64,000 nucleotides of DNA from Novipirellula galeiformis (GTDB taxonomy: Bacteria > Planctomycetota > Planctomycetia > Pirellulales > Pirellulaceae). Shown one piece after another: positions 9,358 to 23,713 of this stretch. Below the pieces are notes generated by a model. The model made no database searches, was not told the origin of the DNA, and was given only the letters and a program-made list of their open reading frames with translations. The first letter of the stretch is position 1, and every line of letters starts with the position of its first letter. Made by a program: the position numbers and the translations under genes. The stretch spans positions 744,001-808,000 of the forward strand of contig NZ_SJPT01000002.1 in the NCBI RefSeq assembly GCF_007860095.1, read 5' to 3'.

Positions 9358-10366
9358 TGCTCTGGCATTCATTCGGCGTGTAGCAACCTGCTCCCGTTCC
9401 AATCGCACTGTTGATACCAACATCTACGCAAATCCAAGTAGCCAACTGCGAGTTTATTCCGGGATTAGTTATCACTCCGGTGGATAGGTTAATCGCACCA
9501 CTACCGGCAGACTGAAAACCAGCAGCAGCCCCATAGCCCGTCAAAGGGCCAACAGCTGGTACTGGACTAAATGCACCAGCCGCGGCCCCTGAGATTGGAA
9601 TGCCTGTACTGCCTGCTACGGTAGTGCCAGCTTGTCCACCCGTCGTAGCCCAGAGGCTCGAACCAGCCCCCGTTCCTAAGGTATTGCTCCCAGTAATTGC
9701 CGCCGCATTTCCCGGGGAAGTGAAGTGTGTTAATCCAGAGGAAGCGTTTCCGGCCGCAACACCCGCGCCGACACCTGCGAATACGCCAGAGACAGTCCCG
9801 CCAACTGCTCCCGCGATCGCTCCACCACTCGCAGCGTTGCCTGGATTGAAGCCGGTATTACCTGAGATGCCCATGCCTACACCCGCGGAAATACCACCGC
9901 CGATTGCACCTGAGATCGCCCCGGCTGCAGCACCTCCGCCAGCACCGGCTAAAGCACCAGCGGGTCCACCCACAACAAATCCGACGACTGCACCGGTGAT
10001 AGCCCCGGAGATTGCGCCGGTCACAGCGCCTGCACCCGCCCCAACCAGGATGTTTCCAACGCCGCCCCAAAAGCTCAGCCCATACGGATCGACCGTCAGC
10101 AATACAAAGTACGCATCGTATAGCGACGTCCCGTCAACATACCCGATAGGGTCTCTGGAGCAAGACTCCAATCGTCGGCAGTTGTCGTAACCGCAAGTCA
10201 GTTTTGTAGTGCGTTTTGCGGGGCTTTGGTACGAAGCTCGGCGCGAGCGACAGCCATTAACCCTCGCGCGTGCGCGAGTGTGGTTTTTGGGATTTCGGCG
10301 GCGGATCGTAGATGCGGTTTTCACGTCGTTGATTGTAGTCGATGGCGGAAAAAACAAATGGGTCAA
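9350..10366 (-). CDS. orphan RHS C-terminal tip A with Gly/Ala-rich linker
   Basis: The frame gives 338 residues. Residues ~5-85 come from leader A and are Arg-rich; the RHS core end follows (SRDPIGYVDGTSLYDA, TVDPYGLSFWGG). A ~130-residue Gly/Ala-rich glycine-zipper segment comes next, then the tip from ~205 (GLTHFTSPGNAAAITGS, SSLWATTGGQAGTTVAG). The LTHFT...AAI...SLWATT pattern recalls ADP-ribosyltransferase-like (HYD1-type) toxin tips; this is inference from a short pattern. The upstream RHS repeat core is missing, so this is a displaced tip, not a full toxin. No start or RBS can be chosen with confidence; the leader may not be translated. Confidence 0.6.
   Translation of the reverse strand: MTHLFFPPSTTINDVKTASTIRRRNPKNHTRARARVNGCRSRRASYQSPAKRTTKLTCGYDNCRRLESCSRDPIGYVDGTSLYDAYFVLLTVDPYGLSFWGGVGNILVGAGAGAVTGAISGAITGAVVGFVVGGPAGALAGAGGGAAAGAISGAIGGGISAGVGMGISGNTGFNPGNAASGGAIAGAVGGTVSGVFAGVGAGVAAGNASSGLTHFTSPGNAAAITGSNTLGTGAGSSLWATTGGQAGTTVAGSTGIPISGAAAGAFSPVPAVGPLTGYGAAAGFQSAGSGAINLSTGVITNPGINSQLATWICVDVGINSAIGTGAGCYTPNECQSNE
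10143..10354 (-). repeat. leader repeat copy A
   Basis: Colinear with leaders B and C. It holds GGAGCAAGACTCCAATCGTC at 10157-10176, a palindromic CCTCGCGCGTGCGCGAG near 10261-10277, and GCGGATCGTAGATGCGGTTT. Its distal edge directly abuts the left inverted repeat of the RAYT element at 10355. Confidence 0.75.
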
Positions 10367-11116
10367 ACCTCTTTGTTTTCATCAGGTGGTAATGGTCGCA
10401 CTCTTGGTCGTCCGCGAGGTCGCATTGTGGATTCAAGATCCAATCGTCGCGCGATGGATTCGACCCACCCTTCATCGCCAAGTGGTGCTCCACGCTGGGC
10501 GCAATTGCGGATGGCTTTGAGTTCATTGTTGGTAAGGGGTTCATTGACTCGTTCAACCCAGTTTGGCAGCCGTGCTATCGGCCATGGGGAGAGCAGCTTC
10601 GGTTCAGGGGCAGGGCTTTGCAACCAACGCCAGAGTGAACCCCAACGCCAATCCTCTGCGTGAGCGACCATCTCCGCACGCCGAGCATTGCGTTCTACGT
10701 AGCGGCAAACCACGAAGAAGTGTTCGTCATCTTGAATCGGAAAACTCTTGAAACGGCCCTGATAGAGATGACCTTTCCCTGTCGTGTGGTAATGAGCATT
10801 GTATCGCATCGTGTGCGTGCCACCCACCCACTTGCAAAATCGCCCCATTTCGCCATCGACAAGTGGTCGTAAGACCAAATGCCAATGCGTACTCATGATT
10901 TGGTACGCGAATAGTTGAACCTGGTAAAGCTGCAACGCTTCGCCAAGAACTTTCTCAAAAGCGGCGAAATCTCCCTCTTTGCGAAAGATCTTCGCACCTA
11001 AGTTAGCGCGGTTCAGGGCGTGATAAATCCCACCCGCTTCGTCGGCTCGTGGTGATCTAGGCATTTCAATAGCCTACCGCCTGCTCCCGCTGAAACAAAG
11101 AGGTTTGACCCATTTG
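10355..11116. mobile_element. RAYT element bounded by perfect 24-bp inverted repeats
   Basis: Bases 10355-10378 and 11093-11116 are exact reverse complements over 24 bp (left copy begins CAAATGGGTCAAACCTCTTT). They enclose a single transposase gene. This is the layout expected when REP-type termini flank a REP-associated tyrosine transposase. No target-site duplication was obvious. Confidence 0.8.
10363..11064 (-). CDS. REP-associated tyrosine transposase (RAYT, Y1/HUH family)
   Basis: This 233-residue single-strand DNA transposase of the IS200-like Y1 superfamily starts MPRSPRADEAGGIYHALNRA, typical of the family. It has the HUH-type metal site in QIMSTHWHLVLRPLVDGEM (HWH), and CRYVERNARRAEMV carries the candidate nucleophile Tyr. 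C-terminal SPWPIARLPNWVERVNEPLT is also family-like. The length is complete and no frameshift is seen, so it may be active. Its stop codon (10363-10365) lies inside the left inverted repeat. Such enzymes act on REP/REPIN sequences, which fits the degenerate termini at 7343 and 8976. Confidence 0.9.
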   Translation of the reverse strand: MPRSPRADEAGGIYHALNRANLGAKIFRKEGDFAAFEKVLGEALQLYQVQLFAYQIMSTHWHLVLRPLVDGEMGRFCKWVGGTHTMRYNAHYHTTGKGHLYQGRFKSFPIQDDEHFFVVCRYVERNARRAEMVAHAEDWRWGSLWRWLQSPAPEPKLLSPWPIARLPNWVERVNEPLTNNELKAIRNCAQRGAPLGDEGWVESIARRLDLESTMRPRGRPRVRPLPPDENKEV

Positions 11117-12311: not shown

Positions 12312-15300
12312 ATGTCCCCACCCAACGCTTCTGCCCCACCCAGTGTTTCTGTTCGTGGCAGCATTCGATTGTGGCTGCTGGTCGTAACGACTGCCCTTGC
12401 ACATGTTCCATTACCCACATTCGCCTCGGATGACTGGCCGATGTGGCGCAACGATGCGCAGCGTTCGGCAGCGACGACCAACACGGTTGCCGATTCGCTC
12501 AGCCCGCTATGGCAGCGAGAATTCGCACAGCGCGTGCCTGCCTGGGACGATCCGCTTAATCTTGACTTGATGACCTACGACCGGATCTTTGAACCGATCG
12601 TCGTCGATGGACGAATGTTCGTCGGGTTCAATGATCAAGACAAATTGCAGGCGCTCGATGCAGACACGGGTCGTGAACTGTGGTCGTTCGTCACGGAAGC
12701 TCCCGTGCGTTTACCACCGGTGGGATGGCAGAACAAAGTCTATTTTTGCAGCGACGATGGTTTCCTGTACTGCGTTAACGCCGAGGATGGATCGCTCGAG
12801 TGGAAATTCAGCGGCGCACCGAATGCCCAACATGTGATCGGTAACCGACGGCTCACGTCAGCATGGCCAGCTCGCGGCGGTCCCGTGGTGCGTGATAATC
12901 GAGTCTACTTCGCTGCCAGCATTTGGCCTTTCATGGGCACGTTCATCTATGCCCTCGATGCAGAGTCCGGCGAGATCCAATGGCTCAACGATAGCACCGG
13001 TGCTCAGTACATTAAACAGCCCCACAGCGCTCCATCCTTCGCCGGCGTGGCGCCTCAAGGTGCCCTGGTGGCGACGCAAGACGAATTGATCGTGCCGGGC
13101 GGCCGCTCGGTTCCCGCTGTCTTGGATCGGGCCACCGGCGAATTACGCTACTTCGAATTGAACGCAGGTGGCAAGGGAAGCGGCGGATCGTTTGTCGCTG
13201 CGGCGGACAATTTCTTCTATGTGCACACGCGCGGTAAAGGAACGCGAGCCTTTAATGTCACCACAGGAAAGAAAACGGCCTTCATGCCTAACGAACCCGT
13301 GTTGACGCCCGGTACCATCTATTCAGCAGAGATGGTCGACGATCAACCGATGGTCCGGGCTTATGGAACAGACGAAAAGTTAATCTGGGAAATCGCCGCC
13401 GATGGACGCGGCGATTTGATCCTAGCCGGCGACAAACTGATCGCTGCAGGCAGTGGCCACATCACTGCGATTCGCTTGCCCAGCCAAAACAAGCCGGCTG
13501 AGATCGTATTTGAATTGCCTTGCGAAGCGCAAGTAGAGCGGTTGCTAGTCGCTTCCGAAAAACTCTTTGCAGTCACGCTCGACGGCAAATTGCTGGCCTT
13601 TGGCGATAGCAAGACTTCCCCTGCTCGGGCGACCGAACCGTCTACTGAATTACCTGCCGATGGAAATGTCGTCGCACAACAGGACCAAACGCCGGGCGGA
13701 CAGAAAGCCGCCTGGGAAACCACCGCCGCAGACCTTCAGATCGTGCAGCAAATGCTCGCTAGCTCGTCGCCCGAAGGCTATGCTTTTTGGTATGGATCCA
13801 CCGATTCGGGCATTGCCCGCAGCTTGGCCAGCAAATCACCGTTTGTGCAACTGGCCATGGTCGATTCGGAAATGCAGCGCGTACACCGGATGCGCAGGCA
13901 GCTAGATTCACAAGGTATTCAAGGCGTCACGGTGCATCATGCCCAGGCTGCTGCGTTTCGTGCGCCGCAGTACGTGGGGCACATGGTGTTCATCGCGCCC
14001 GATTGTGTGGCAAAGATCGTCGATGAGATTAGCAGCACGGGGCGTCAATCAGAAACGCTAGCCAGCTTGTATCAAACGGTCCGCCCCTATGGAGGCACGC
14101 TGCATCTGTTGACTTCCGATAGCAGTAGCGATGAAAGTGCCGACGCGATAAATGCGGAGCGTTTGGCGACGCTCGTCGATGCGTTGGAGCTGGAAAAGGC
14201 AGAGGTCGAAGTTCGCGACTACGGGGTCTGTGTCCGCCGCGTCGGAGCGCTGCCCGGTTCCGCCGATTGGACGCACCAAAACGGGGACGTGGCCAATACG
14301 CTTAAGTCCAACGATAGCCGAGTCAAGCTACCGCTGGGCGTGCTGTGGTTCGGCGGCAATAGCAATATGGACATCCTGCCGCGGCATGGTCACGGACCAC
14401 CGGAGCAAGTTGTCGGAGGGCGATTGTATATTCAGGGTATGAACAGCCTCAGTTGCCGCGATGTCTACACGGGCCGCGACATCTGGAAACGAGACTTTGA
14501 CGATCTGGGAACGTTCGACGTCTATTTTGATACGACGTATGAAGATACGCCTCTGGATACGAAATACAACCAAGTCCACATTCCCGGCGCTAACGCACGA
14601 GGCACCAACTATGTCGTGACCGAGGATCGTGTTTACATGTTGGTCGGTAACGCCTGTTTGGCACTCGACCCGCTGACCGGAGAAACGCTGCATCAAATCG
14701 AACTGCCCCACGATGACAACGGCGATCAAGCCGAGTGGGGATATATCGGCATCTACGAAGACGTGCTGGTTGGCGGGTTGGGATTTGCCAAATATCGCGA
14801 GCGGCATGACTTGGAGTTCGAATCGGACAAAGGTCTGAGTGCGAACAAGGCTGGCTTCGGTTCGAAGAGTCTCGATCGGGCGGCGAGCGCAGGATTGATC
14901 GGTTTTGATCGCCATACGGGCAAGCAATTATGGCAGGTCATGGCCAAGCATAGCTTCTGGCACAACGGCATCGTGGCGGGGGGTGGCAAACTCTATTGTC
15001 TGGACAAAAACCCCAGTCACATCGAAGAGGCCTTGTTGCGCCGCGGCCAACCCGAGCCTGACGACTACCGTATCCTGACCATGGATTACCGAACCGGTCA
15101 GACGTTATGGGAAGTCGCGGAAGGCATCTTTGGAACTTGGCTTGGCTATTCGCCGCAATTCGATCTGCTGCTTCAAGCTGGCGCCAAGGCCAGCGATCGC
15201 TTGACGTCCGAAACCGGCCATGGCATGACCGTCTACCATGCGGCTGATGGTACGATCAAGTGGCAGAACCCAGACCTGGACTACTCGGGGCCCTGCGTTC

Positions 15301-16361
15301 TGCACAATGATTTGATTATCACCAACGCAAACTCTTACGCTGAATCTGCGGGTGCCTTTCACTTGCTGACCGGCAAGCAGCGAATGGTCAAGAACCCGTT
15401 GACGGGAGAGCTCCAGCCATGGAAGATCACGCGTGCATACGGATGTAACAGCATCATTGCCAGCGAAAACATGCTGACGTTCCGCTCCGGTGCCGCCGGG
15501 TATTACGACATGTTGACTGAAGGTGGCACGGGCAACTTGGGTGGTTTTAAATCGGGCTGTACTTCGAACCTCGTCGTGGCCAACGGCGTACTCAATGCGC
15601 CTGACTATACACGAACGTGTAGTTGCGCTTACCAGAATCAAACCTCGTTGGCATTGGTCCACATGCCCGACATCGATATGTGGACGATTGACTTGATTGC
15701 AAACAACGCTACGCCCGAGCAGTTGCTCGAGCGCATGGCGATCAATTTCGGCGCACCCGGGCATCGCCGACAACCCGATGGCCAATTGTGGATGGAGTAT
15801 CCCGTCATGGCTGCCGACTCTATTCCCATCGATATCCAAACCAATGCCGAGGCCAAGCCATTTCAGCATCACTCGTCGCTAGTCAAAGGCGTGGATCGGC
15901 CCTGGGTGCTGGCATCGGGCTTGGAGGATCTGACCGAATTGCGGATTGGCATGCGAGTCAAATCACCCCCGGCCAAGGCAGCCGCTAAAACATCCAAATT
16001 GAAAAAAGCAGACGCCACGGCAAAAACGGATACTGCGACGAGCCGGCGCCGTGAGCAGTTGGTCGCGACCACGGTGCCGGAGGTCGACGATCCGGTTCAC
16101 CACTACGATGTGCGGCTGCATTTCTCTAGTTCGCCCATTACCAGCCAAGGCCGACGAGTCTTCGATGTTTACGCGCAAGACAAATTGGTGATCAGCGACG
16201 TGACGATCGACCCGGCCGACGGTTCGGGCCAGCAGACTGCGGAGCATCTGCTTGAGCAAATTCCTATCGCTGGCAATCTGCGATTGCGGTTTGTGCCCAA
16301 ACAAGGCTCTGCTGTCCTGTCAGGCATCGAAATCGATAAACGTGAAACGGAGAAGAAGTAG
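12312..16361 (+). CDS. secreted PQQ-type double beta-propeller protein with Rossmann-like insert
   Basis: This 1349-residue protein is exported (signal around 16-38, RLWLLVVTTALAHVPLPTFA). Residues ~40-435 form a first PQQ/BamB-like propeller (DDWPMWRNDAQRSAATT; LDADTGRELWSF). Residues ~470-650 are different and resemble a degenerate SAM-methyltransferase fold (YGSTDSGIARSLA, LAMVDSEMQRVHRMRRQL), without the usual Gly-rich motif I. Residues ~655-1115 are a second propeller (ALDPLTGETLHQIELP). A Lys/Ala-rich linker (~1218-1245) leads to a malectin-like C-terminal domain. It heads the set that includes the secreted protein (5 bp downstream) and the E1/Ubl genes. No enzymatic role can be stated; ligand binding or scaffold is likely. 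Confidence 0.8.
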   Translation: MSPPNASAPPSVSVRGSIRLWLLVVTTALAHVPLPTFASDDWPMWRNDAQRSAATTNTVADSLSPLWQREFAQRVPAWDDPLNLDLMTYDRIFEPIVVDGRMFVGFNDQDKLQALDADTGRELWSFVTEAPVRLPPVGWQNKVYFCSDDGFLYCVNAEDGSLEWKFSGAPNAQHVIGNRRLTSAWPARGGPVVRDNRVYFAASIWPFMGTFIYALDAESGEIQWLNDSTGAQYIKQPHSAPSFAGVAPQGALVATQDELIVPGGRSVPAVLDRATGELRYFELNAGGKGSGGSFVAAADNFFYVHTRGKGTRAFNVTTGKKTAFMPNEPVLTPGTIYSAEMVDDQPMVRAYGTDEKLIWEIAADGRGDLILAGDKLIAAGSGHITAIRLPSQNKPAEIVFELPCEAQVERLLVASEKLFAVTLDGKLLAFGDSKTSPARATEPSTELPADGNVVAQQDQTPGGQKAAWETTAADLQIVQQMLASSSPEGYAFWYGSTDSGIARSLASKSPFVQLAMVDSEMQRVHRMRRQLDSQGIQGVTVHHAQAAAFRAPQYVGHMVFIAPDCVAKIVDEISSTGRQSETLASLYQTVRPYGGTLHLLTSDSSSDESADAINAERLATLVDALELEKAEVEVRDYGVCVRRVGALPGSADWTHQNGDVANTLKSNDSRVKLPLGVLWFGGNSNMDILPRHGHGPPEQVVGGRLYIQGMNSLSCRDVYTGRDIWKRDFDDLGTFDVYFDTTYEDTPLDTKYNQVHIPGANARGTNYVVTEDRVYMLVGNACLALDPLTGETLHQIELPHDDNGDQAEWGYIGIYEDVLVGGLGFAKYRERHDLEFESDKGLSANKAGFGSKSLDRAASAGLIGFDRHTGKQLWQVMAKHSFWHNGIVAGGGKLYCLDKNPSHIEEALLRRGQPEPDDYRILTMDYRTGQTLWEVAEGIFGTWLGYSPQFDLLLQAGAKASDRLTSETGHGMTVYHAADGTIKWQNPDLDYSGPCVLHNDLIITNANSYAESAGAFHLLTGKQRMVKNPLTGELQPWKITRAYGCNSIIASENMLTFRSGAAGYYDMLTEGGTGNLGGFKSGCTSNLVVANGVLNAPDYTRTCSCAYQNQTSLALVHMPDIDMWTIDLIANNATPEQLLERMAINFGAPGHRRQPDGQLWMEYPVMAADSIPIDIQTNAEAKPFQHHSSLVKGVDRPWVLASGLEDLTELRIGMRVKSPPAKAAAKTSKLKKADATAKTDTATSRRREQLVATTVPEVDDPVHHYDVRLHFSSSPITSQGRRVFDVYAQDKLVISDVTIDPADGSGQQTAEHLLEQIPIAGNLRLRFVPKQGSAVLSGIEIDKRETEKK

Positions 16362-16366
16362 TCAAG

Positions 16367-17341
16367 ATGAAAAAGCCTTTGCAAATTTTTCTATTGATCG
16401 CCACGGCGGTGGTCGCATCCGCCGCCGCTTCGATGGCTTGCCAAGTCCCGGTGTTTCGTTACGCACTGGAACGATGGTCGGCCGATAAGTACCAAGTCAT
16501 CGTGCTTTCCTCGGGCCCCCTCGAAGGAACTTCGCAGACCAACCTGCAGCGATTGCAAGCGTCAGCGGCGGAGCAGGGAGCCAATTTCGAGGTGGTGACA
16601 GCCGACGTGGCGACGATTGAGGACCGTCGTTTACTCGAGCTATGGCAGCAGCATCAGCCCCACGACTCGCCGCTCATGATCACGCTCTATCCGCGTTCGG
16701 CCGAACAGGTCCCGGACCGCGTGATCGAGGCAGGCGCACTCACCAGTGATGCTGTGTCACGTTTGCTGCATTCACCCGTGCGAAAGGAGGTTGCTCAGCG
16801 ATTGAGCAGTGGACAATCCGCAGTCTGGATTTTTGTCCCCAGTGGTGATGCGGACAAAGACCGCTTGGCGATGCGAGCCCTTGAGCAGCGTCTAACCGCT
16901 AATCAACAAATACTGAAGGTGCCCACCGCGGAAGAGCTGGATATCGCCCCGCTGCGTTTGGAAAACAACAAGATCCCGCTGCGGATTGAATTTTCGGTCG
17001 TGACGCTTGACCGCCAGGATCCGCAGGAAGCTTTCTTGTTAGCCGCACTGACACACAGCGAGGCTGGATTGCCGCAGACCGAACCGCAAGCGTTCCCAGT
17101 TTTCGGGCGTGGCCGAGTCTTGTATGCGTTAGTGGGTCGGGGAATAATGCCCACGACGATCGATACTGCCTGCAAGTTCATGGCTGGCCCCTGCTCGTGC
17201 CAGGTCAAGAATCTGAACCCGGGTTTCGATTTGCTGTTGTCGCATGGCTGGGACGACGTGGTAGCGGGATCGATGATTTCGGATGCCTTGCCCGCTGAGT
17301 CCGCTGAACCCGTCCTGCTGACCATTCCCCCAGGCCGCTAA
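16367..17341 (+). CDS. secreted protein with conserved-looking Cys motifs, function unknown
   Basis: Not assigned to a named family. The 324-residue product starts MKKPLQIFLLIATAVVASAA, a signal peptide, and mature sequence begins near ACQVPVFRYALERW, where a Cys lies next to the likely cleavage site. The first part looks thioredoxin-like in strand/helix pattern; near the C terminus MAGPCSCQVKNLNPGFDLLL has a Cys-x-Cys pair. Its start lies 5 bp after the propeller gene stop, so the two are almost surely cotranscribed. Cys residues at both ends make a redox or sulfur-handling role thinkable in view of the sulfur-carrier genes downstream, but that is inference. Confidence 0.65.
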   Translation: MKKPLQIFLLIATAVVASAAASMACQVPVFRYALERWSADKYQVIVLSSGPLEGTSQTNLQRLQASAAEQGANFEVVTADVATIEDRRLLELWQQHQPHDSPLMITLYPRSAEQVPDRVIEAGALTSDAVSRLLHSPVRKEVAQRLSSGQSAVWIFVPSGDADKDRLAMRALEQRLTANQQILKVPTAEELDIAPLRLENNKIPLRIEFSVVTLDRQDPQEAFLLAALTHSEAGLPQTEPQAFPVFGRGRVLYALVGRGIMPTTIDTACKFMAGPCSCQVKNLNPGFDLLLSHGWDDVVAGSMISDALPAESAEPVLLTIPPGR

Positions 17342-17427
17342 GAATCGCGTTGCTTGGGAGGTGGACGAGGCTCGGAATCACGCGATCCAATTTCACCTTG
17401 ACTCTCGCTTGCTCATTTGAATTCAAC

Positions 17428-18198
17428 ATGCACTCTCACCAGTCACTTACCGCCGAAGAACATGCCACCTACGAGTGGCAGATGTGGGTTTCCGATTTCG
17501 GCGCCGCAGGACAACAGAAACTCAAAAATGCATCAGTGATGATTTCACGCGTCGGCGGCGTCGGCAGCGTTGTGGCCTATGAACTGGCCGCTGCAGGTGT
17601 GGGCAAGTTGATTCTCGCCCACGCTGGAAACGTTAAACCGAGCGATTTGAATCGGCAATTGCTGATGACTCACGATTGGATCGGCAAGCCGAGGATCGAA
17701 TCCATCCGGCGACGCTTGCTAGAACTAAACCCACGTTTAGAGATCGTGGCGGTCGGTGAAAACGTCGGCCCTGAAAATGCTGCCCAACTAATCGAACAGT
17801 GTGACGTCGTCGTCGATTGTGCGCCGCTGTTCCCCGAACGTTTCCTCATGAACGAGCAAGCCGTTCGCCAAGGCAAACCGATGGTTGAATGTGCGATGTA
17901 CGAAATGGAAGCCCACATCACTACCATTATCCCGGGTCGGTCCCCCTGCCTGCGGTGCCTATTCCCTGAAGCTCCTCCGACTTGGAAACGTCAGTTCCCC
18001 GTGTTCGGCGCCGTCTCTGGGACTGTCGCCTGTATGGGCGCGGTCGAAGCGATCAAAGTCATCGCGGAAATCGGCACCCCCTTGGCCGGTCGGTTAGTAA
18101 AAATGGATCTGCGTGATATGAGCTTTCGCACCCTGAATTTTGCACGTCGCAGCGATTGCCCGGTGTGCGGCCAAACACAGCAATCCATAACCGAGTGA
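17428..18198 (+). CDS. ThiF/MoeB/HesA-family E1-like protein, divergent
   Basis: This 256-residue E1-like protein starts best at ATG 17428 (MHSHQSLTAEEH); an upstream in-frame start at 17350 adds an unlikely leader. It keeps the nucleotide-binding loop (SRVGGVGSVVAYELAAAGVG), SDLNRQLLMTHDWIGKPRIE, and the two zinc CxxC pairs (SPCLRCLF and CPVCGQT). It lacks key features of MoeB: the N-terminal RYxRH Arg motif is replaced by TYEWQMW, and the DGTDN block by VVVDCAPLF. It may bind nucleotide or the carrier without normal adenylation. It is 16 bp upstream of the MoaD/ThiS gene, which a canonical MoeB follows. Confidence 0.8.
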   Translation: MHSHQSLTAEEHATYEWQMWVSDFGAAGQQKLKNASVMISRVGGVGSVVAYELAAAGVGKLILAHAGNVKPSDLNRQLLMTHDWIGKPRIESIRRRLLELNPRLEIVAVGENVGPENAAQLIEQCDVVVDCAPLFPERFLMNEQAVRQGKPMVECAMYEMEAHITTIIPGRSPCLRCLFPEAPPTWKRQFPVFGAVSGTVACMGAVEAIKVIAEIGTPLAGRLVKMDLRDMSFRTLNFARRSDCPVCGQTQQSITE

Positions 18199-18214
18199 AA
18201 GGAGCTCCTAAGTT

Positions 18215-18484
18215 ATGAACGTCATCATTCCCACTTCCCTGCGTCAGCATACCGGCGGCCTTGGGATCATCGATGTCCAAGGCCAGTGCGTTGATGAAGC
18301 ACTGCTGTGCTTGGTCGAGTCGCATCCTGCGCTGAAACCGCAACTACTCGATGCGTCCGGAGGCCTGCTCTCTCACGTCAACGTGTTTGTGAACGATACG
18401 AACTCGCGAGATTTGGACGCGGGTGCCACCCCCCTTGCCGAATCCGACGAAATCTTGCTGGTGCCAGCGATCGCGGGTGGATAG
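18215..18484 (+). CDS. MoaD/ThiS-family ubiquitin-like sulfur carrier
   Basis: This 89-residue beta-grasp protein ends DEILLVPAIAGG, with the C-terminal Gly-Gly that is adenylated and thiocarboxylated in MoaD/ThiS. The N terminus MNVIIPTSLRQHTGG and VFVNDTNSRDLDAGATPLAE fit the fold. AAAGGAGCT at ~18198-18206 is a good RBS. It is sandwiched between two E1-like genes, and the next gene starts the base after its stop. It could serve molybdopterin, thiamine, cysteine or another sulfur product; no partner MoaE is visible. Confidence 0.88.
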   Translation: MNVIIPTSLRQHTGGLGIIDVQGQCVDEALLCLVESHPALKPQLLDASGGLLSHVNVFVNDTNSRDLDAGATPLAESDEILLVPAIAGG

Positions 18485-19642
18485 ATGAGCAAGGACAACA
18501 CGGCATTGTCGCCCGAGGAACTCCAGCGATACGCGCGGCATCTCAGTTTGCCGGAACTTGGCTTGGCGGGGCAAGCCAAACTGCGTGCCGCTTCGGTACT
18601 GATCGTGGGAACCGGTGGCTTGGGTTCACCGGTGGCAATGTACTTGGCCGCTGCCGGTGTCGGGCGACTGGGAATGATCGATTTTGATCGCGTGGAATAC
18701 TCGAACCTGCAGCGTCAAATCATTCATACGACTGATAGTGTTGGTCGCTCGAAGGTCGCGTCGGCAGCCGAGGCTGTTGCCAGGATCAATCCACTGATCA
18801 CGGTCGATGCGATCGACGCCGCACTGACAAGTGAAAATGCAATGAGTATCGCCGGTGACTATGACATCATCATCGACGGAACCGACAATTTTGCGACGCG
18901 GTACTTGGTGAACGATGTCTGTGTGCTGCTGAAAAAGCCGAACTGTTACGGTTCGATCTTTCGCTTCGAAGGCCAAGCGTCCGTGTTCGGTCACGCGGGC
19001 GGACCTTGTTACCGCTGCTTGTATCCTCAACCGCCCGCACCAGGAACCGTACCGAATTGTGCCGAGGGAGGTGTGCTGGGAATCCTGCCCGGAATCGTAG
19101 GTACAATTCAGGCCACTGAAGCGATCAAGTTGATCCTGGGAATCGGTAACTCATTGTCAGGCCGATTGCTGCTGATCGATGCCGCCGAGATGAGGTTTCG
19201 AGAGTTGAAAGTGCGACGCAGCGCCGATTGCCCCGTGTGTGGTGACGCGCCGACGATTACCGCGCCGATCGACTACGACCAGTTCTGCGGCTCGTCTCCG
19301 GCCAGCGAGGAAACGGACGTACAAAGCCGCTGGGATATTGAGGCGAGTGAGCTGAAGCAAATGCTCGATGACGGCACGGAGTTCGTTTTGGTTGACGTCC
19401 GCGAGCCCCACGAGCACGAGATCTGCAGCTTGGGAGGAACTCTAATCCCACTTGCCGAACTTACCGATCGCCAACACGAATTGCCAACCGACAAAACCAT
19501 CGTTGTGCACTGCAAACTCGGCGGTCGCAGCGCTCAGGCGGCCCATCAACTGCGAGAGCTTGGTTTCAAGGACGTCCGCAATTTGCGTGGCGGGATTGAT
19601 GCCTGGGCCACCCAGATCGATCCTTCGATGCCGCGATACTAA
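18485..19642 (+). CDS. moeB: MoeB-type adenylyltransferase with C-terminal rhodanese domain
   Basis: This 385-residue protein fuses an E1 domain (~1-255) to a rhodanese domain (~285-385), as in MoeZ/MOCS3. It adenylates the Gly-Gly end of a ubiquitin-like carrier, and the rhodanese passes sulfur. Visible: RYARHLSLPELGLAGQAKL, VGTGGLGSPVAMYLAAAGVG, DFDRVEYSNLQRQIIH, IDGTDNFATRYLVND, CxxC pairs (PCYRCLYP; CPVCGD), and the rhodanese loop IVVHCKLGGRSAQAA with its active-site Cys. It is abutted directly to the sulfur-carrier gene. Residues are intact, so full activity is likely. It is the last gene before the 139-bp repeats. Confidence 0.92.
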   Translation: MSKDNTALSPEELQRYARHLSLPELGLAGQAKLRAASVLIVGTGGLGSPVAMYLAAAGVGRLGMIDFDRVEYSNLQRQIIHTTDSVGRSKVASAAEAVARINPLITVDAIDAALTSENAMSIAGDYDIIIDGTDNFATRYLVNDVCVLLKKPNCYGSIFRFEGQASVFGHAGGPCYRCLYPQPPAPGTVPNCAEGGVLGILPGIVGTIQATEAIKLILGIGNSLSGRLLLIDAAEMRFRELKVRRSADCPVCGDAPTITAPIDYDQFCGSSPASEETDVQSRWDIEASELKQMLDDGTEFVLVDVREPHEHEICSLGGTLIPLAELTDRQHELPTDKTIVVHCKLGGRSAQAAHQLRELGFKDVRNLRGGIDAWATQIDPSMPRY

Positions 19643-19670
19643 TTCGCTACGCCGCGAAGCACTTAGAGAC

Positions 19671-20090
19671 GGCAAATTACAGCATTTGCGTTCCGTAGCT
19701 ACGCTCGCCAGAGCGTGGATGGTTGCCGGCCAATACGAATCACCACCTTCTGGCGAAGGTAGCTACGAGAATATGGTTCTTCGCTGCTGTTCGCTACGCT
19801 CAAACCACCGGCAAATTACGGCATTTGCGTTCCGTAGCTACGCTCGCCAGAGCGTGGATGGTTGCCGGCCAATACGAATCACCACCTTCTGGCGAAGGTA
19901 GCTACGAGAAAATCGTTTTTCGCTGCTGTTCGCTACGCTCAAACCACCGGCAAATTACGGCATTTGCATTCCGTAGCTACGCTCGCCAGAGCGTGGATGG
20001 TTGCCGGCCAACACTAATCACCACCTTCTGGCGAAGGTAGCTACGAGAAAATCGTTTTTCGCTGCTGTTCGCTACGCTCAAACCACCGGC
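19671..20090. repeat. 139-bp tandem repeat, three copies
   Basis: GGCAAATTAC recurs at 19671, 19810 and 19949, and a truncated GGCAAATTGC at 20088: an exact 139-bp period. Copies differ at few bases. Inside each unit, CGTAGCTACGCTCGCCAGAG and CTTCTGGCGAAGGTAGCTAC are inverted relatives, so each unit can form a long hairpin. It fills most of the gap between the convergent MoeB and ModC genes. The period is not a multiple of three, so it is not coding; it may act as a bidirectional terminator. Confidence 0.9.
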
Positions 20091-20157
20091 AAATTGCAAA
20101 AATCTCTATCGCGATTGCGGCGAAACCAATGTGCGACAGGAACGATCAAGGCAACGC

Positions 20158-20796
20158 TCATTCGGCGGTGATTTTGCCGTCATCGAGCACAAACCGGCGG
20201 TCGGCAAGCGCGGCCGCCTCTGCGCTGCTATGGGTGACATGCAGCGTCGTCACGCCGGTGGTTTCCTTGACCCGCCGCAGCAACTCACGCATCTCCAGTC
20301 GCGTCGATTCGTCCAGTGCGCTCAGCGGCTCATCGAGCAACAACACGCTGGGATGAAACGATAACGCTCTGCCGAGCGCCACACGCTGAGACTCTCCGCC
20401 ACTGAGTCCATCAATCTTGCGGCTTAGCAACGACGTGATACCCAGCATCTCGCTCAGCTCTTCAGATCGACGATTCATCTCGGCACGCGATTGGCCACGC
20501 AGCTTCAGAGCAAACGTCAAGTGTTCGGCGACGCTAAGCGTGGGAAACAACGCCAGGTCTTGCGGTACATATCCGATTTGTCGGTCGCCGGGCATCCAAT
20601 CGGTGACGTCCGTTCCCTCGATTAGTATTTGGCCATGATGAATTCGGCGGAGCCCGCAGATCGCTTCGAGGATCGTTGTTTTGCCACGTCCGGTGCGGCC
20701 CATCAATGCCACGTATTCGCCCGAGCGGATTTGAAACGATAGCTGCCTCAGTCGGAATTCACCCGCCCCAATGGTGATGTCACGTAGTTCAATCAT
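20158..20796 (-). CDS. modC: molybdate/tungstate-type ABC transporter ATP-binding protein
   Basis: The ATPase is 212 residues from ATG 20796 (MIELRDITIGAGEF). It shows Walker A GRTGRGKTT, Q-loop VPQDLALFPTLSV, signature LSGGESQRVALGRAL, Walker B VLLLDEPLSALDE and the switch His in LHVTHSSAEAAAL. It lacks the C-terminal Mop/TOBE domain of classic ModC, so it is a short form. Its ATG overlaps the permease stop (ATGA, 20793-20796). Phosphate, sulfate or tungstate importers have similar ATPases; the partner binding protein decides the substrate. Confidence 0.85.
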   Translation of the reverse strand: MIELRDITIGAGEFRLRQLSFQIRSGEYVALMGRTGRGKTTILEAICGLRRIHHGQILIEGTDVTDWMPGDRQIGYVPQDLALFPTLSVAEHLTFALKLRGQSRAEMNRRSEELSEMLGITSLLSRKIDGLSGGESQRVALGRALSFHPSVLLLDEPLSALDESTRLEMRELLRRVKETTGVTTLHVTHSSAEAAALADRRFVLDDGKITAE

Positions 20797-21659
20797 GCCG
20801 TCAATCCTGTTCCCAAAACTCGCAAGACCAGCAGCACGATGACCGCCATCGCGACCATCAGCAGAGACACCGCGACGGCGGCATCCAGCTGTCCGACACT
20901 GAGTTCTAAAAACACCGTCGTCGAGAGCACCTCCGTACGCATTCGTGTCGCGCCGGCAAAGACCAAGATCGGTCCGAATTCGCCCAACGCCCGTGCCCAC
21001 GCAATCGTGGTTGCCGCGATCATACCACGCCACGCCTGGGGGATCGCGATCTGCATGAACGCTTGGGCGCGGGTACAGCCGAGCGTGCGTGCGACGTCTT
21101 CGGCACGAGGGTCGATCTGATCGAACGTCACTCGCATCGTGCGCACGGCAAACGCACAGGCCACCGAAAACTGCGCCAGCACCACGGCGGGCCAGCGATA
21201 AGTCACGGGAAAACCGACACTGTCGCGAAGCCAGGCTTCGAGTTCCCAACCACCGACCGGAAGGTGAAATAGAATCAACAAACTAAGGCCCAGCACCAGC
21301 GGCGGCAGCACAATCGGGATGTCCACCAGCGTATCGATCATCCATCGTCCGGGAAAACGATAGCGAGAGAGCAGATACCCCAGCGGCGTGGCAACCCAAA
21401 TCGAAAGGATCGCAGCAGCGGTACAGGACAACATGGTCAGCCGAAACGCTACTTGGATTTCCGGCTTCGCCAGCGCCGCAGTAAAGTCAGAAAAGGATGT
21501 AAACAGGATATCGGCAGCCAACAGCAAAACAATCAGCAGCACAAAGAGAGCGGAAATCGCGCTCATGACGAAAAAGAACGGCACATCGCTTCGTCGGCGA
21601 CGAACTGCAAGTCCCTTCTTTGTTGTTACCGTTACGCTTGGTTCGACTTCGCTTGTCAT
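20793..21659 (-). CDS. modB: molybdate-type ABC transporter permease
   Basis: This 288-residue inner-membrane permease has about six helices after a charged ~25-residue N terminus. The ATPase-coupling loop is visible as EDVARTLGCTRAQAFMQIAI, then ARALGEFGPILVFAGATRM, a pattern shared by ModB/CysT-type permeases (the GEFG block is typical). It is coupled to the ATPase gene by a 4-bp overlap. The substrate-binding gene lies 217 bp upstream, with the 22-bp repeats between. Molybdate versus tungstate is not decided by sequence. Confidence 0.85.
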   Translation of the reverse strand: MTSEVEPSVTVTTKKGLAVRRRRSDVPFFFVMSAISALFVLLIVLLLAADILFTSFSDFTAALAKPEIQVAFRLTMLSCTAAAILSIWVATPLGYLLSRYRFPGRWMIDTLVDIPIVLPPLVLGLSLLILFHLPVGGWELEAWLRDSVGFPVTYRWPAVVLAQFSVACAFAVRTMRVTFDQIDPRAEDVARTLGCTRAQAFMQIAIPQAWRGMIAATTIAWARALGEFGPILVFAGATRMRTEVLSTTVFLELSVGQLDAAVAVSLLMVAMAVIVLLVLRVLGTGLTA

Positions 21660-21799
21660 TTCGTCAGAGCTGAAGAGTTGTAGTTTTTTGAAGCCGCAAG
21701 ATTGGTGATTGCTTTCTTAACCAAAGACCACCGCCATCGTAGCCTCGGGCTATGTCGAGTGCAGGACCTTGGCCATAAAACTCGGGGCGATATTATCCC

Positions 21800-21855
21800 G
21801 TGCCGTGGGCAAGGCTGTCCAGTGCCATGGGCAAGGTTGTCCAGTGCCGCGGGCA
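21800..21855. repeat. 22-bp tandem repeat, 2.5 copies
   Basis: Units GTGCCGTGGGCAAGGCTGTC..., starting at 21800 and 21822, and a partial at 21844 differ by single bases. They lie between the ModA-like and ModB genes and could separate their expression. Confidence 0.75.
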
Positions 21856-21876
21856 CATCAATGCCGCGCACGGCGG

Positions 21877-23385
21877 TCATTCTCCCTTGTTCGCATCCAA
21901 TTGCCAGCGGAAACCTTCGGCGGCGAATATCCCCTGTGATGACTGCGAACAGATTTGTTGGAACAACCGTCCGGCCAATTCTGGGTACTTTGACTCTTCC
22001 GCGACCGCCCAGGGTTGCGTTGCGACGCTACACGAGATGTCTTGGATTCGGATCGCATCCAACGACTCCGAGGCCCCCGCTGCGTTACTCAAATAAGCCA
22101 CGGCGGTGTCGAGTGAACCGGTCAGCAACTGATTCACCAACATATCGCCCGTCGGCGACTGGACCGTCACGTTGGGCATCACCTCTTGCTGAATACCACT
22201 TTCACGAAACGTGTTTTGAGTGACCCAGCCCATCGCACATTGCTTCTCGTGTCCAATCCCCACTCGCAAGTCCTTGCGAGTTAAATCCCGTAACGATCGG
22301 ATGTTTTTCGGATTGCCTTTTTGCACCAAAATCACCAGTTCGTTTTGGGAGACCGGAACCGGCTCGGGAAACAAATCGTGAACTTGGTTCATGAATTCCG
22401 AATCGCAGGCGAAATAGGCGTCCGGATGTTGCCCCGCCTTCATTTGAGCAACCAAGATTCCGCAGCCATTGTAAACCCGGTTGACCTTGATGCCCTCGCG
22501 TTTTTCAAACGCTGCGATCGTGTCCTCGATTGCGGGACGCAACATCGAGCCAGCAAAAATCGACAACTCCGGCACGTCGCTCCAAGTGTCTCCGCCTCGG
22601 GTGCGAAAACCGAACTCAGCGTAGTGCTTCAGTCCGCGGTCTCGCGCCGAAAGGTAGCGTGCGAAATGAAGTGCCGCCTGGGGTTGGTCCGTCGAAGCGA
22701 TCACGCCTACCGAAATTTGAGATGCGGCATCCGCCAACTCAGGCAACTCAATGTACTCGAGGTCGTCATAGGTATTCAGTACCGCGTCGTACACGATTCC
22801 AGCATCTGCGGCACCGATCGCAACATCATTGGCAACTTCGTTGACCGTTGCGCGTGACGCAGTCACGGACGACTCGATCAGCTCCCACTGGCCATCCGCA
22901 CTCAGAACCTCACGTACGACTTTGCCAATCGCGGCCGTATCGGGACTGGCCATGACCAACCGCACCTCATCGCGGAGCAGGTCCGAGAACTGCTCGATCG
23001 ACTTTGGGTTGTTCCGCTTGATAGCGACCACGGCCTGCATGCGAGCGATCGGCACCACCTCCGCGACCAATTGCTTGTCGCGAGCCATGTCGAGATAGCT
23101 GTCATCGGCTGGCAAGAACAAGTCTCCCGATCGAGTCACCTCAATGGACGACAGCAAGGTTTGTGACGGCCCGTACTGGATATCAACCTTGCGACCAAAC
23201 TCTTGTTCGTAGTCCTCGCGAATCGACTCCATCACTGCGCGATTGCTGGCGGCACAGTACAGCATTATCGATTGTGGTGGATCGTCCGAGGTCGCGTGAT
23301 TGCCAAGGTTCAAAATGGCAAAGATCCCAGCCAGCAAAATCACCGACCCGATGATGAGTAGTAAGATCCGATTCTTTGATGACAT
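21877..23385 (-). CDS. tandem double ModA-like substrate-binding protein
   Basis: About 502 residues, twice the usual ModA length. The N terminus (MSSKNRILLLIIGSVILLAG) is an anchor or signal; an ATG five codons upstream (23400) is an alternative. Two periplasmic-binding domains follow each other: domain 1 (~35-270) with SIMLYCAASNRAVMESIRED and SGDLFLPADDSYLDMA, domain 2 (~280-500) with LSIFAGSMLRPAIEDTIAAF and HPDAYFACDSEFMNQV. Each keeps the ModA order: opening strand, polar loop, and the NPKSI/NPKNI lobe crossover. The pair likely arose by duplication and fusion, then diverged. It delivers oxyanion to the permease downstream. Molybdate is the best guess; tungstate is possible. Confidence 0.85.
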   Translation of the reverse strand: MSSKNRILLLIIGSVILLAGIFAILNLGNHATSDDPPQSIMLYCAASNRAVMESIREDYEQEFGRKVDIQYGPSQTLLSSIEVTRSGDLFLPADDSYLDMARDKQLVAEVVPIARMQAVVAIKRNNPKSIEQFSDLLRDEVRLVMASPDTAAIGKVVREVLSADGQWELIESSVTASRATVNEVANDVAIGAADAGIVYDAVLNTYDDLEYIELPELADAASQISVGVIASTDQPQAALHFARYLSARDRGLKHYAEFGFRTRGGDTWSDVPELSIFAGSMLRPAIEDTIAAFEKREGIKVNRVYNGCGILVAQMKAGQHPDAYFACDSEFMNQVHDLFPEPVPVSQNELVILVQKGNPKNIRSLRDLTRKDLRVGIGHEKQCAMGWVTQNTFRESGIQQEVMPNVTVQSPTGDMLVNQLLTGSLDTAVAYLSNAAGASESLDAIRIQDISCSVATQPWAVAEESKYPELAGRLFQQICSQSSQGIFAAEGFRWQLDANKGE

Positions 23386-23713
23386 GTCTACCAATTCCAT
23401 GCTGTCGAACGAAAGGAATTAAGCCAGCATACCATGATCGATTTCCTGCATCGCCACCCTCTAAACCTTAAACAAGCGAGCTTCGCTTGTTTCCTTATGC
23501 TTAGGTTCCAACATCCATTTCACGTTCGTTCCAATCGGAACGCCTCTCGTGGTCGGTCACGATAGAAAGAATTGACCTGCCCCCACCCCCTACTCTCATA
23601 ACAGTGGACCATGAATTAGGGGCATTCCATAGCGGAGCGTCCCCTTGCCATAGCCATTCGGGGGTGAACCAATTCGTTTCGCTATGATTTATGCTTCTTC
23701 GTTTCCGTCGAGG

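Follow-up and report, generated by a model that had tools for sequence, protein, structure and literature searches.

Why should genes for a cytoplasmic carrier machinery lie directly behind genes for exported proteins? This question is raised by a stretch of 64,000 nucleotides from Novipirellula galeiformis (contig NZ_SJPT01000002.1, positions 744,001 to 808,000; hereafter the window), where a large propeller protein (PROP) and a cysteine-containing protein (CYS), both predicted from their N termini to be exported, are followed by a ThiF-family protein (E1a), a small carrier protein and a MoeB-type adenylyltransferase (E1b). A first-pass annotation of the window took these five genes for one set. 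Open reading frames (ORFs) and domain scans agree on their places, all on the plus strand. Three genes convergent to them, modC, modB and a tandem-domain modA (20158-23400, minus strand), had been overlooked. There is very little doubt that these genes belong to a real gene system that is conserved, for the most part in Planctomycetota and Verrucomicrobiota. It comprises PROP, CYS, a Cys-containing tandem ModA with ModB and ModC, and an E1 of the HesA type. Extra members are the Gly-Gly carrier and the MoeB-rhodanese protein in some genomes, and a LolCE/MacB-type permease bearing a CxC motif with a LolD-type ATPase in others. The features of the window are:

PROP, 12312..16361, plus strand: 1349 aa, double propeller with PQQ_2/BamB-type repeats (domain scan)
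Near-invariant Cys 1045, 1083, 1103 and 1105 of PROP, codons 15444-15446, 15558-15560, 15618-15620 and 15624-15626, plus strand
Conserved His 655, 692 and 884 of PROP, codon starts 14274, 14385 and 14961, plus strand
CYS, 16367..17341, plus strand: 324 aa, starting 5 bp after PROP
Invariant C25, C276 and C278 of CYS, codons 16439-16441, 17192-17194 and 17198-17200, plus strand
E1a, 17425..18198, plus strand: HesA-type ThiF-family protein (PF00899, 190 bits)
Carrier, 18215..18484, plus strand: ThiS/MoaD/SAMP1-like protein with a C-terminal Gly-Gly
E1b, 18485..19642, plus strand: MoeB-type adenylyltransferase with a C-terminal rhodanese domain (ThiF 279 bits, Rhodanese 62 bits)
modC, 20158..20850, minus strand: transporter ATPase, start approximate, overlapping modB
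modB, 20793..21659, minus strand: molybdate-type permease (TIGR01581, 197 bits, cut-off 210)
Tandem-domain modA, 21877..23400, minus strand: two substrate-binding domains within one chain (TIGR01256, 122 bits, cut-off 62.5)
Conserved Cys 49, 313 and 332 of the tandem ModA, codons 23254-23256, 22462-22464 and 22405-22407, minus strand

The E1a ORF opens with TTG at 17350, and the ATG at 17425 is preferred from homologues, which leaves a gap of 83 bp after CYS. The carrier scores 33.4 bits with PF02597 (cut-off 22.5) and 52.6 bits with the SAMP1 model (cut-off 60). E1b lies above two curated MoeB models, PRK05690.1 (307 bits, cut-off 266) and PRK08762.1 (454 bits, cut-off 449). For CYS, Pfam gave sub-threshold matches only and NCBIfam none.

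Conservation of the gene system among genomes

Two sets of genomes were searched, 40 related genomes including the window's own (G000) and a phylum-wide draw of 118 genomes; the Fisher tests applied to both ignore the relatedness of the genomes. Among the 40, a full-length tandem ModA with the conserved Cys is limited to the 17 system genomes, which are all 15 CYS-positive ones plus G014 and G026. PROP, taken as present when the profile of its C-terminal propeller matched at E 1e-60 (31 candidates scored in most genomes), was found in 14 genomes, 13 of the 15 with CYS and G026, while the profile of the Cys-motif permease matched in 12, several times on a contig other than that of CYS; both families occur only within the 17. 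A HesA-type E1 (best match of at least 146 bits) is also found in 17 genomes, that is 14 of the 15 with CYS, G014, G026 and G019, and 16 of these have the tandem ModA. Nine pairs tested among these five families gave Fisher p from 3e-9 to 2e-4 (CYS/ModA 3e-9, HesA/ModA 4e-9, ModA/PROP 3e-8).

In the 118 genomes, CYS was found in 18 and a strong HesA match (at least 316 bits, which excludes a partial one in G107 and any divergent forms) in 20, with 16 genomes having both (p 3e-14). HesA occurs without CYS in G019, where it belongs to a nif cluster, and in G061, G154 and G132, the last three with the same neighbourhood. A distant CYS-like protein that has a CxC of its own and, at the C terminus, a hydrophobic segment is encoded in G154, G132 and G014; that of G154 aligns with CYS at an hhalign probability of 90% (E 1.5e-6).

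A pattern scan of named genomes gave at least 592 pattern matches, at least 577 of them confirmed as CYS relatives. Neighbouring genes were counted in the best 80 of these loci, mostly from Planctomycetota and Verrucomicrobiota by record title. Counts were made by tblastn within the stretch around CYS, many contigs being short, since the ORF-based synteny table dropped CYS in L077, L079, L082 and L100. PROP was found in 54 of the 80 loci, the tandem ModA and the permease in 19 each, ModB in 15, the HesA-type E1 in 8, the carrier in 4 and MoeB-rhodanese in 2. Of the 55 loci that match PROP at a looser score, 41 have it less than 500 bp from CYS. Distant members contain contiguous runs: CYS-permease-LolD-modA-modB-modC-HesA in L142, PROP-CYS-modA-modB-modC-HesA in L154 and HesA-CYS-permease-LolD in L147. 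As they are conserved in other genomes, the neighbours in the window are linked beyond chance. The first-pass annotation had tied cytoplasmic carrier machinery to the exported pair, and this is borne out by co-occurrence and adjacency elsewhere, above all for the HesA-type E1.

The same annotation had proposed the five-gene order as a conserved unit, which has to be given up. PROP-CYS-E1-carrier-E1 on one strand occurs in none of the 80 loci, and carrier and E1 genes lying apart from PROP, which it had named as evidence to the contrary, are common among relatives. The second E1 (E1b) was found in two of the 80 loci, both times convergent to PROP-CYS, and the E1a-carrier-E1b trio is convergent to this pair in G013, L057 and L064. 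The closest relative among the matches listed is L034 (CYS 68% and PROP 75% identical to those of the window), where CYS is followed by a CsrA-looking ORF and neither type of E1 was found within 17.7 kb around it. With the one-strand order absent from all 80 loci and no E1 in this stretch of L034, a strict five-gene operon was rejected.

A separate family of proteins of about 1060 aa is present in 11 loci (L040, L044, L045, L046, L048, L049, L051, L061, L062, L063 and L067), its gene directly following CYS in the synteny table; the L040 copy is cut short. Because the representative of L067 shows a CxxCH motif, the family may be a cytochrome-type redox partner.

E1a as a HesA-type protein

The best plasmid matches of E1a, with 46-48% identity, are proteins annotated as HesA in Nostoc and Pseudanabaena, encoded together with nif genes and modA/modB. 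E1a has the motifs of cyanobacterial HesA, and a tree groups it with these proteins against MoeB-type rows at 100/99, with one long branch on the MoeB side and an unsettled bootstrap. Without the long-branch row the grouping reaches 100/100, with five or six rows only on the MoeB side. Judged by these sequence features, E1a belongs to the HesA type, apart from MoeB. Two features set E1a apart: its GxGGxG loop begins with Arg instead of Gly, and the acidic residue normally found behind the second strand is lacking. Such a protein may not carry out adenylation in the normal manner.

HesA, the type of E1 found in nif clusters, has a published genetic link to the iron-molybdenum cofactor of nitrogenase (FeMo-co). 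In a study in Paenibacillus, a hesA mutant nearly lost nitrogenase activity, regained part of it with high molybdate or cystine and retained nitrate reductase activity, and the authors link HesA to the entry of Mo and S into FeMo-co, not to the pterin-based molybdenum cofactor (Moco) (PMC6361004). A nitrogenase context was considered for the window and rejected, as NifB was found in 5 of the 40 genomes and not in G000; 13 of the 17 system genomes have none. Among the system genomes, G009, G011 and G013 match NifB, the best stretch scoring about 313-336 bits. In G019, the whole E1-carrier-E1 trio lies inside a nif cluster with nifK, nifE, nifN, nifX and nifV by curated models, the nifX match being below the cut-off of its model.

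The molybdopterin enzyme families tested do not follow the distribution of the system. The first-pass annotation had reported MoaE as missing from the window, which is correct: the single copy of G000 lies on another contig (G000:C4:322684), and all 40 genomes searched, the window's own included, have MoaE. The XDH family was found in 9 of the 17 system genomes and 15 of the 23 others, and the AOR family in 9 of 17 and 6 of 23 (excluding G038, below cut-off), so neither tracks the system; PF00384, present in 38 of the 40, is uninformative.

Conserved cysteines and predicted structures

In the alignment of CYS (A2; 67 of 77 relatives plus the window), from which near-duplicate or overlong rows were excluded, all 68 rows have C25, C276 and C278. 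In our reading, C25 lies at the start of the mature protein, which would place one invariant Cys at the mature N terminus; the other two form a pair (C276-x-C278) after the second domain. No CxxC exists in the window protein, nor as conserved columns of the alignment. PROP relatives were aligned with the same exclusions (A3; 45 of 53 plus the window). In a PROP alignment of 68 rows, which counts two halves of one split gene (L116) and has two gapped rows, C1045, C1083, C1103 and C1105 are kept in 66, 66, 66 and 61 rows. The four Cys were also found in 20 of 20 further PROP copies, as were H655 and H692, with H884 in 19. One of these copies lies beside a tandem modA; around the other 19, the sequence examined contains no further gene of the system.

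The permease has both of its Cys in 28 of 28 aligned rows, 27 of them as a strict CxC, in the part between membrane segments. Among the 12 permease-positive genomes the motif is CxC in 10, CxxC in G026 and Cx4C in G014; a second, weak permease match in G011 is without the pair. In the tandem ModA, C313 and C332 are conserved in 37 of 37 rows and C49 in 35.

The model of CYS is confident (mean pLDDT 90.6), and we read it as two putative thioredoxin-like domains, the first of them less tested. Foldseek ranks PDI-family proteins and complexes highest for this model (E 1e-4), with a TM of only 0.2 over the whole chain. The second domain matches thioredoxins with Z 8.8 and 2.6 A for 102 residues, a score little higher than common arrangements reach, and the CYS profile found no match among PDB sequences up to E 1. 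In the C-terminal half of PROP (pLDDT 81.4), a PQQ/BamB-type propeller is followed by a beta domain. Foldseek places tetrathionate hydrolase at the top for this second propeller (E 1e-13, TM 0.39 of the query), PQQ and BamB-type propellers scoring equally well; in VIA-align the first ranks go to YxaL and BamB-type chains (Z 25-23). The PROP profile gave weak propeller matches only against PDB. The middle domain of PROP (residues 465-645), with one sub-threshold Pfam match, looked Rossmann-like.

A putative metal-sulfur site and its alternatives

Our preferred reading, which we put forward tentatively, is that exported propellers receive a metal-sulfur site which the system assembles. That this site contains Mo or W, is held by Cys/His without pterin or nitrogenase and is made for exported propeller enzymes by the HesA/ModABC/thiol-carrier system is possible but doubtful. 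Molybdate (or tungstate) would be taken up through ModABC and joined with sulfur in the cytoplasm by HesA, in the window with assistance from the carrier and MoeB-rhodanese. The metal-sulfur species would then pass to CYS, acting as an exported thiol carrier with CxC-to-CxC hand-over, and from there to a putative thiolate/His site of the propellers. A step outside the cytoplasm would be driven by the permease where present (12 of the 17 system genomes), paired with a LolD-type ATPase where the two are linked. The PROP paralogues would be the client enzymes. PROP matches reach 13 per genome (G011, some partial) against one tandem ModA match per genome, which fits clients of one maturation system.

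Several points weigh against this reading. In the window's genome and in G010, G013, G024 and G028 no permease was found by profile search, which leaves the outward route in the window's genome unexplained. The CYS of G000, G013 and G024 is also without the C-terminal membrane helix present in many relatives, and these two absences together suggest that two forms of the system exist. G016 is CYS-positive and has no HesA match, G013 and G028 have no PROP match at E 1e-60 (G013 has a divergent PROP), and the PROP count rests on the 31 candidates scored in most genomes. In 8 of the 17 HesA-positive genomes (G009, G010, G011, G015, G017, G020, G023 and G032) HesA is a divergent form with 34-39% identity, whose score against E1a is no higher than that of E1b; it forms one clade on the HesA side (100/100), on a long branch, and is assigned by the tree only. 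Thirteen of the 80 loci have neither PROP, ModA, ModB, permease nor HesA in the stretch examined, and the carrier (4 loci) and MoeB-rhodanese (2) are minority members. The neighbours of the 20 further PROP copies, inspected by eye, show no recurring partner and hint at no reaction. The conserved Cys may be disulfides, redox or structural, the Cys-bearing ModA relative may bind another ligand, and with MoaE in all 40 genomes, ModABC may serve Moco as well.

The flow could also run inward, as scavenging, instead of outward. PROP and CYS would then capture thiol-bound or thio-form Mo/W, or another soft metal, and pass it to the Cys-containing tandem ModA for import by ModBC, after which HesA would free or convert it. 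ModA is exocytoplasmic by family and has three conserved Cys, the window's genome yielded no permease, and Mo and S are handled by HesA within the cell (PMC6361004). Uptake nevertheless seems unlikely to us, because so many PROP copies for one tandem ModA match look like many clients and because the permease is of the FtsX/MacB family, whose members are not known to import. The predicted tandem thioredoxin-like domains of CYS, with PDI-family proteins as best structural matches and the Z score of its second domain, would also suit a PDI-like chaperone by which disulfides of the propeller are formed or protected, the mod and hesA genes being linked for some other reason. CYS, however, has no CxxC, and its invariant Cys are placed at the start of the mature chain and beyond the second domain; the co-occurrence of tandem ModA and HesA would be left unexplained. 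We regard such a role in thiol-redox folding as unlikely.

Transfer of sulfur only was the proposal of the first-pass annotation: a thiocarboxylate on the Gly-Gly carrier would feed a sulfur-containing exported product, with Mo incidental. Carrier and MoeB-rhodanese are by family a standard sulfur-loading pair. The proposal, however, omits the molybdate-type transporter, which is the strongest partner, and the published tie of HesA to Mo; moreover, its two proteins are the rarest members among the 80 loci, whereas ModA and HesA track the system. We regard it as improbable. The MoaD-, MoeB- and ModABC-like genes, with MoaE elsewhere in every genome searched, could instead be an ordinary second gene set for Moco or a W cofactor lying beside an unrelated propeller pair, but adjacency to the exported genes and co-occurrence with them, families AOR and XDH that do not track, and a tracking E1 of the HesA type make this very improbable. 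Equally hard to credit is that PROP is a sulfur-compound enzyme like tetrathionate hydrolase, the top Foldseek match of its second propeller, with a thiol relay moving sulfane sulfur rather than metal. The TM of that match is low, PQQ/BamB-type propellers do as well and come first in VIA-align, and ModABC would have no explanation.

A metal-sulfur site in exported propellers can be compared with the maturation of nitrous oxide reductase by NosDFY and NosL, where CuZ sits in the propeller of NosZ and NosDFY is thought to supply sulfide (PMC6530538). By analogy, the common principle may be a propeller enzyme that receives a metal-sulfur site outside the cytoplasm from a dedicated carrier and an ABC transporter. 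The parts appear unrelated: here the permease is of the FtsX/MacB_PCD type, the carrier predicted to be thioredoxin-like and the propeller of the PQQ/BamB type, while ModABC and HesA have no Nos counterpart and copper is not indicated. No Nos family turned up among the rows of the Pfam/NCBIfam scan, which included no search aimed at them. The two systems are thus alike in how they would work, and the likeness does not make the present one a Nos system.

Single components resemble other known proteins. Among the HesA proteins of nif clusters (cyanobacteria, Paenibacillus and Frankia), those of Nostoc and Pseudanabaena share family, motifs and tree position with E1a, although the E1a gene sits with genes of exported proteins instead of nitrogenase and G000 has no NifB match. 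The permease of a relative matches FtsX (PF02687, 62 bits) and weakly lolCE, and its partner ATPase has LolD as best match; in contrast to LolCDE and MacB, it reaches 45.5 bits where the LolCE cut-off is 362, has its own CxC and is tied to genomes with CYS and ModA. The window ModA lies above the NCBIfam cut-off for molybdate binding, and differs from an ordinary ModA by its two substrate-binding domains per chain and three conserved Cys. PROP shares propeller repeats and fold with PQQ dehydrogenases and BamB, whereas it stays far below the PQQ enzyme models (TIGR03075, PQQ alcohol dehydrogenase, 35.3 of 480 bits; TIGR04528, 43 of 650) and has its own set of Cys and His.

Searches of an open-licence library found, judged by title, no account of this gene set, and the system is on this basis apparently undescribed. 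Two biological uses of molybdenum are known, in pterin cofactors and in FeMo-co; a Mo (or W) site of the kind proposed would, if true, be a third. Molybdate-type transport and HesA are tied here to exported proteins, mostly in genomes without NifB. If the metal-sulfur site is real, a large uncharacterised family of exported proteins gains a cofactor, and HesA becomes open to study in a setting other than nitrogenase. Even with a wrong guess of the metal, a conserved multi-gene system with exocytoplasmic Cys motifs has been delimited and is directly testable.

A promoter scan of the window gave fewer sites than its shuffles, which says nothing on transcription. Between E1b and modC lies a 139-bp tandem repeat of 3 copies (19670-20095), with terminator-like hairpin matches on the minus strand. 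Upstream of PROP, an IS200-like transposase (Y1_Tnp) was found at 10363-11064.

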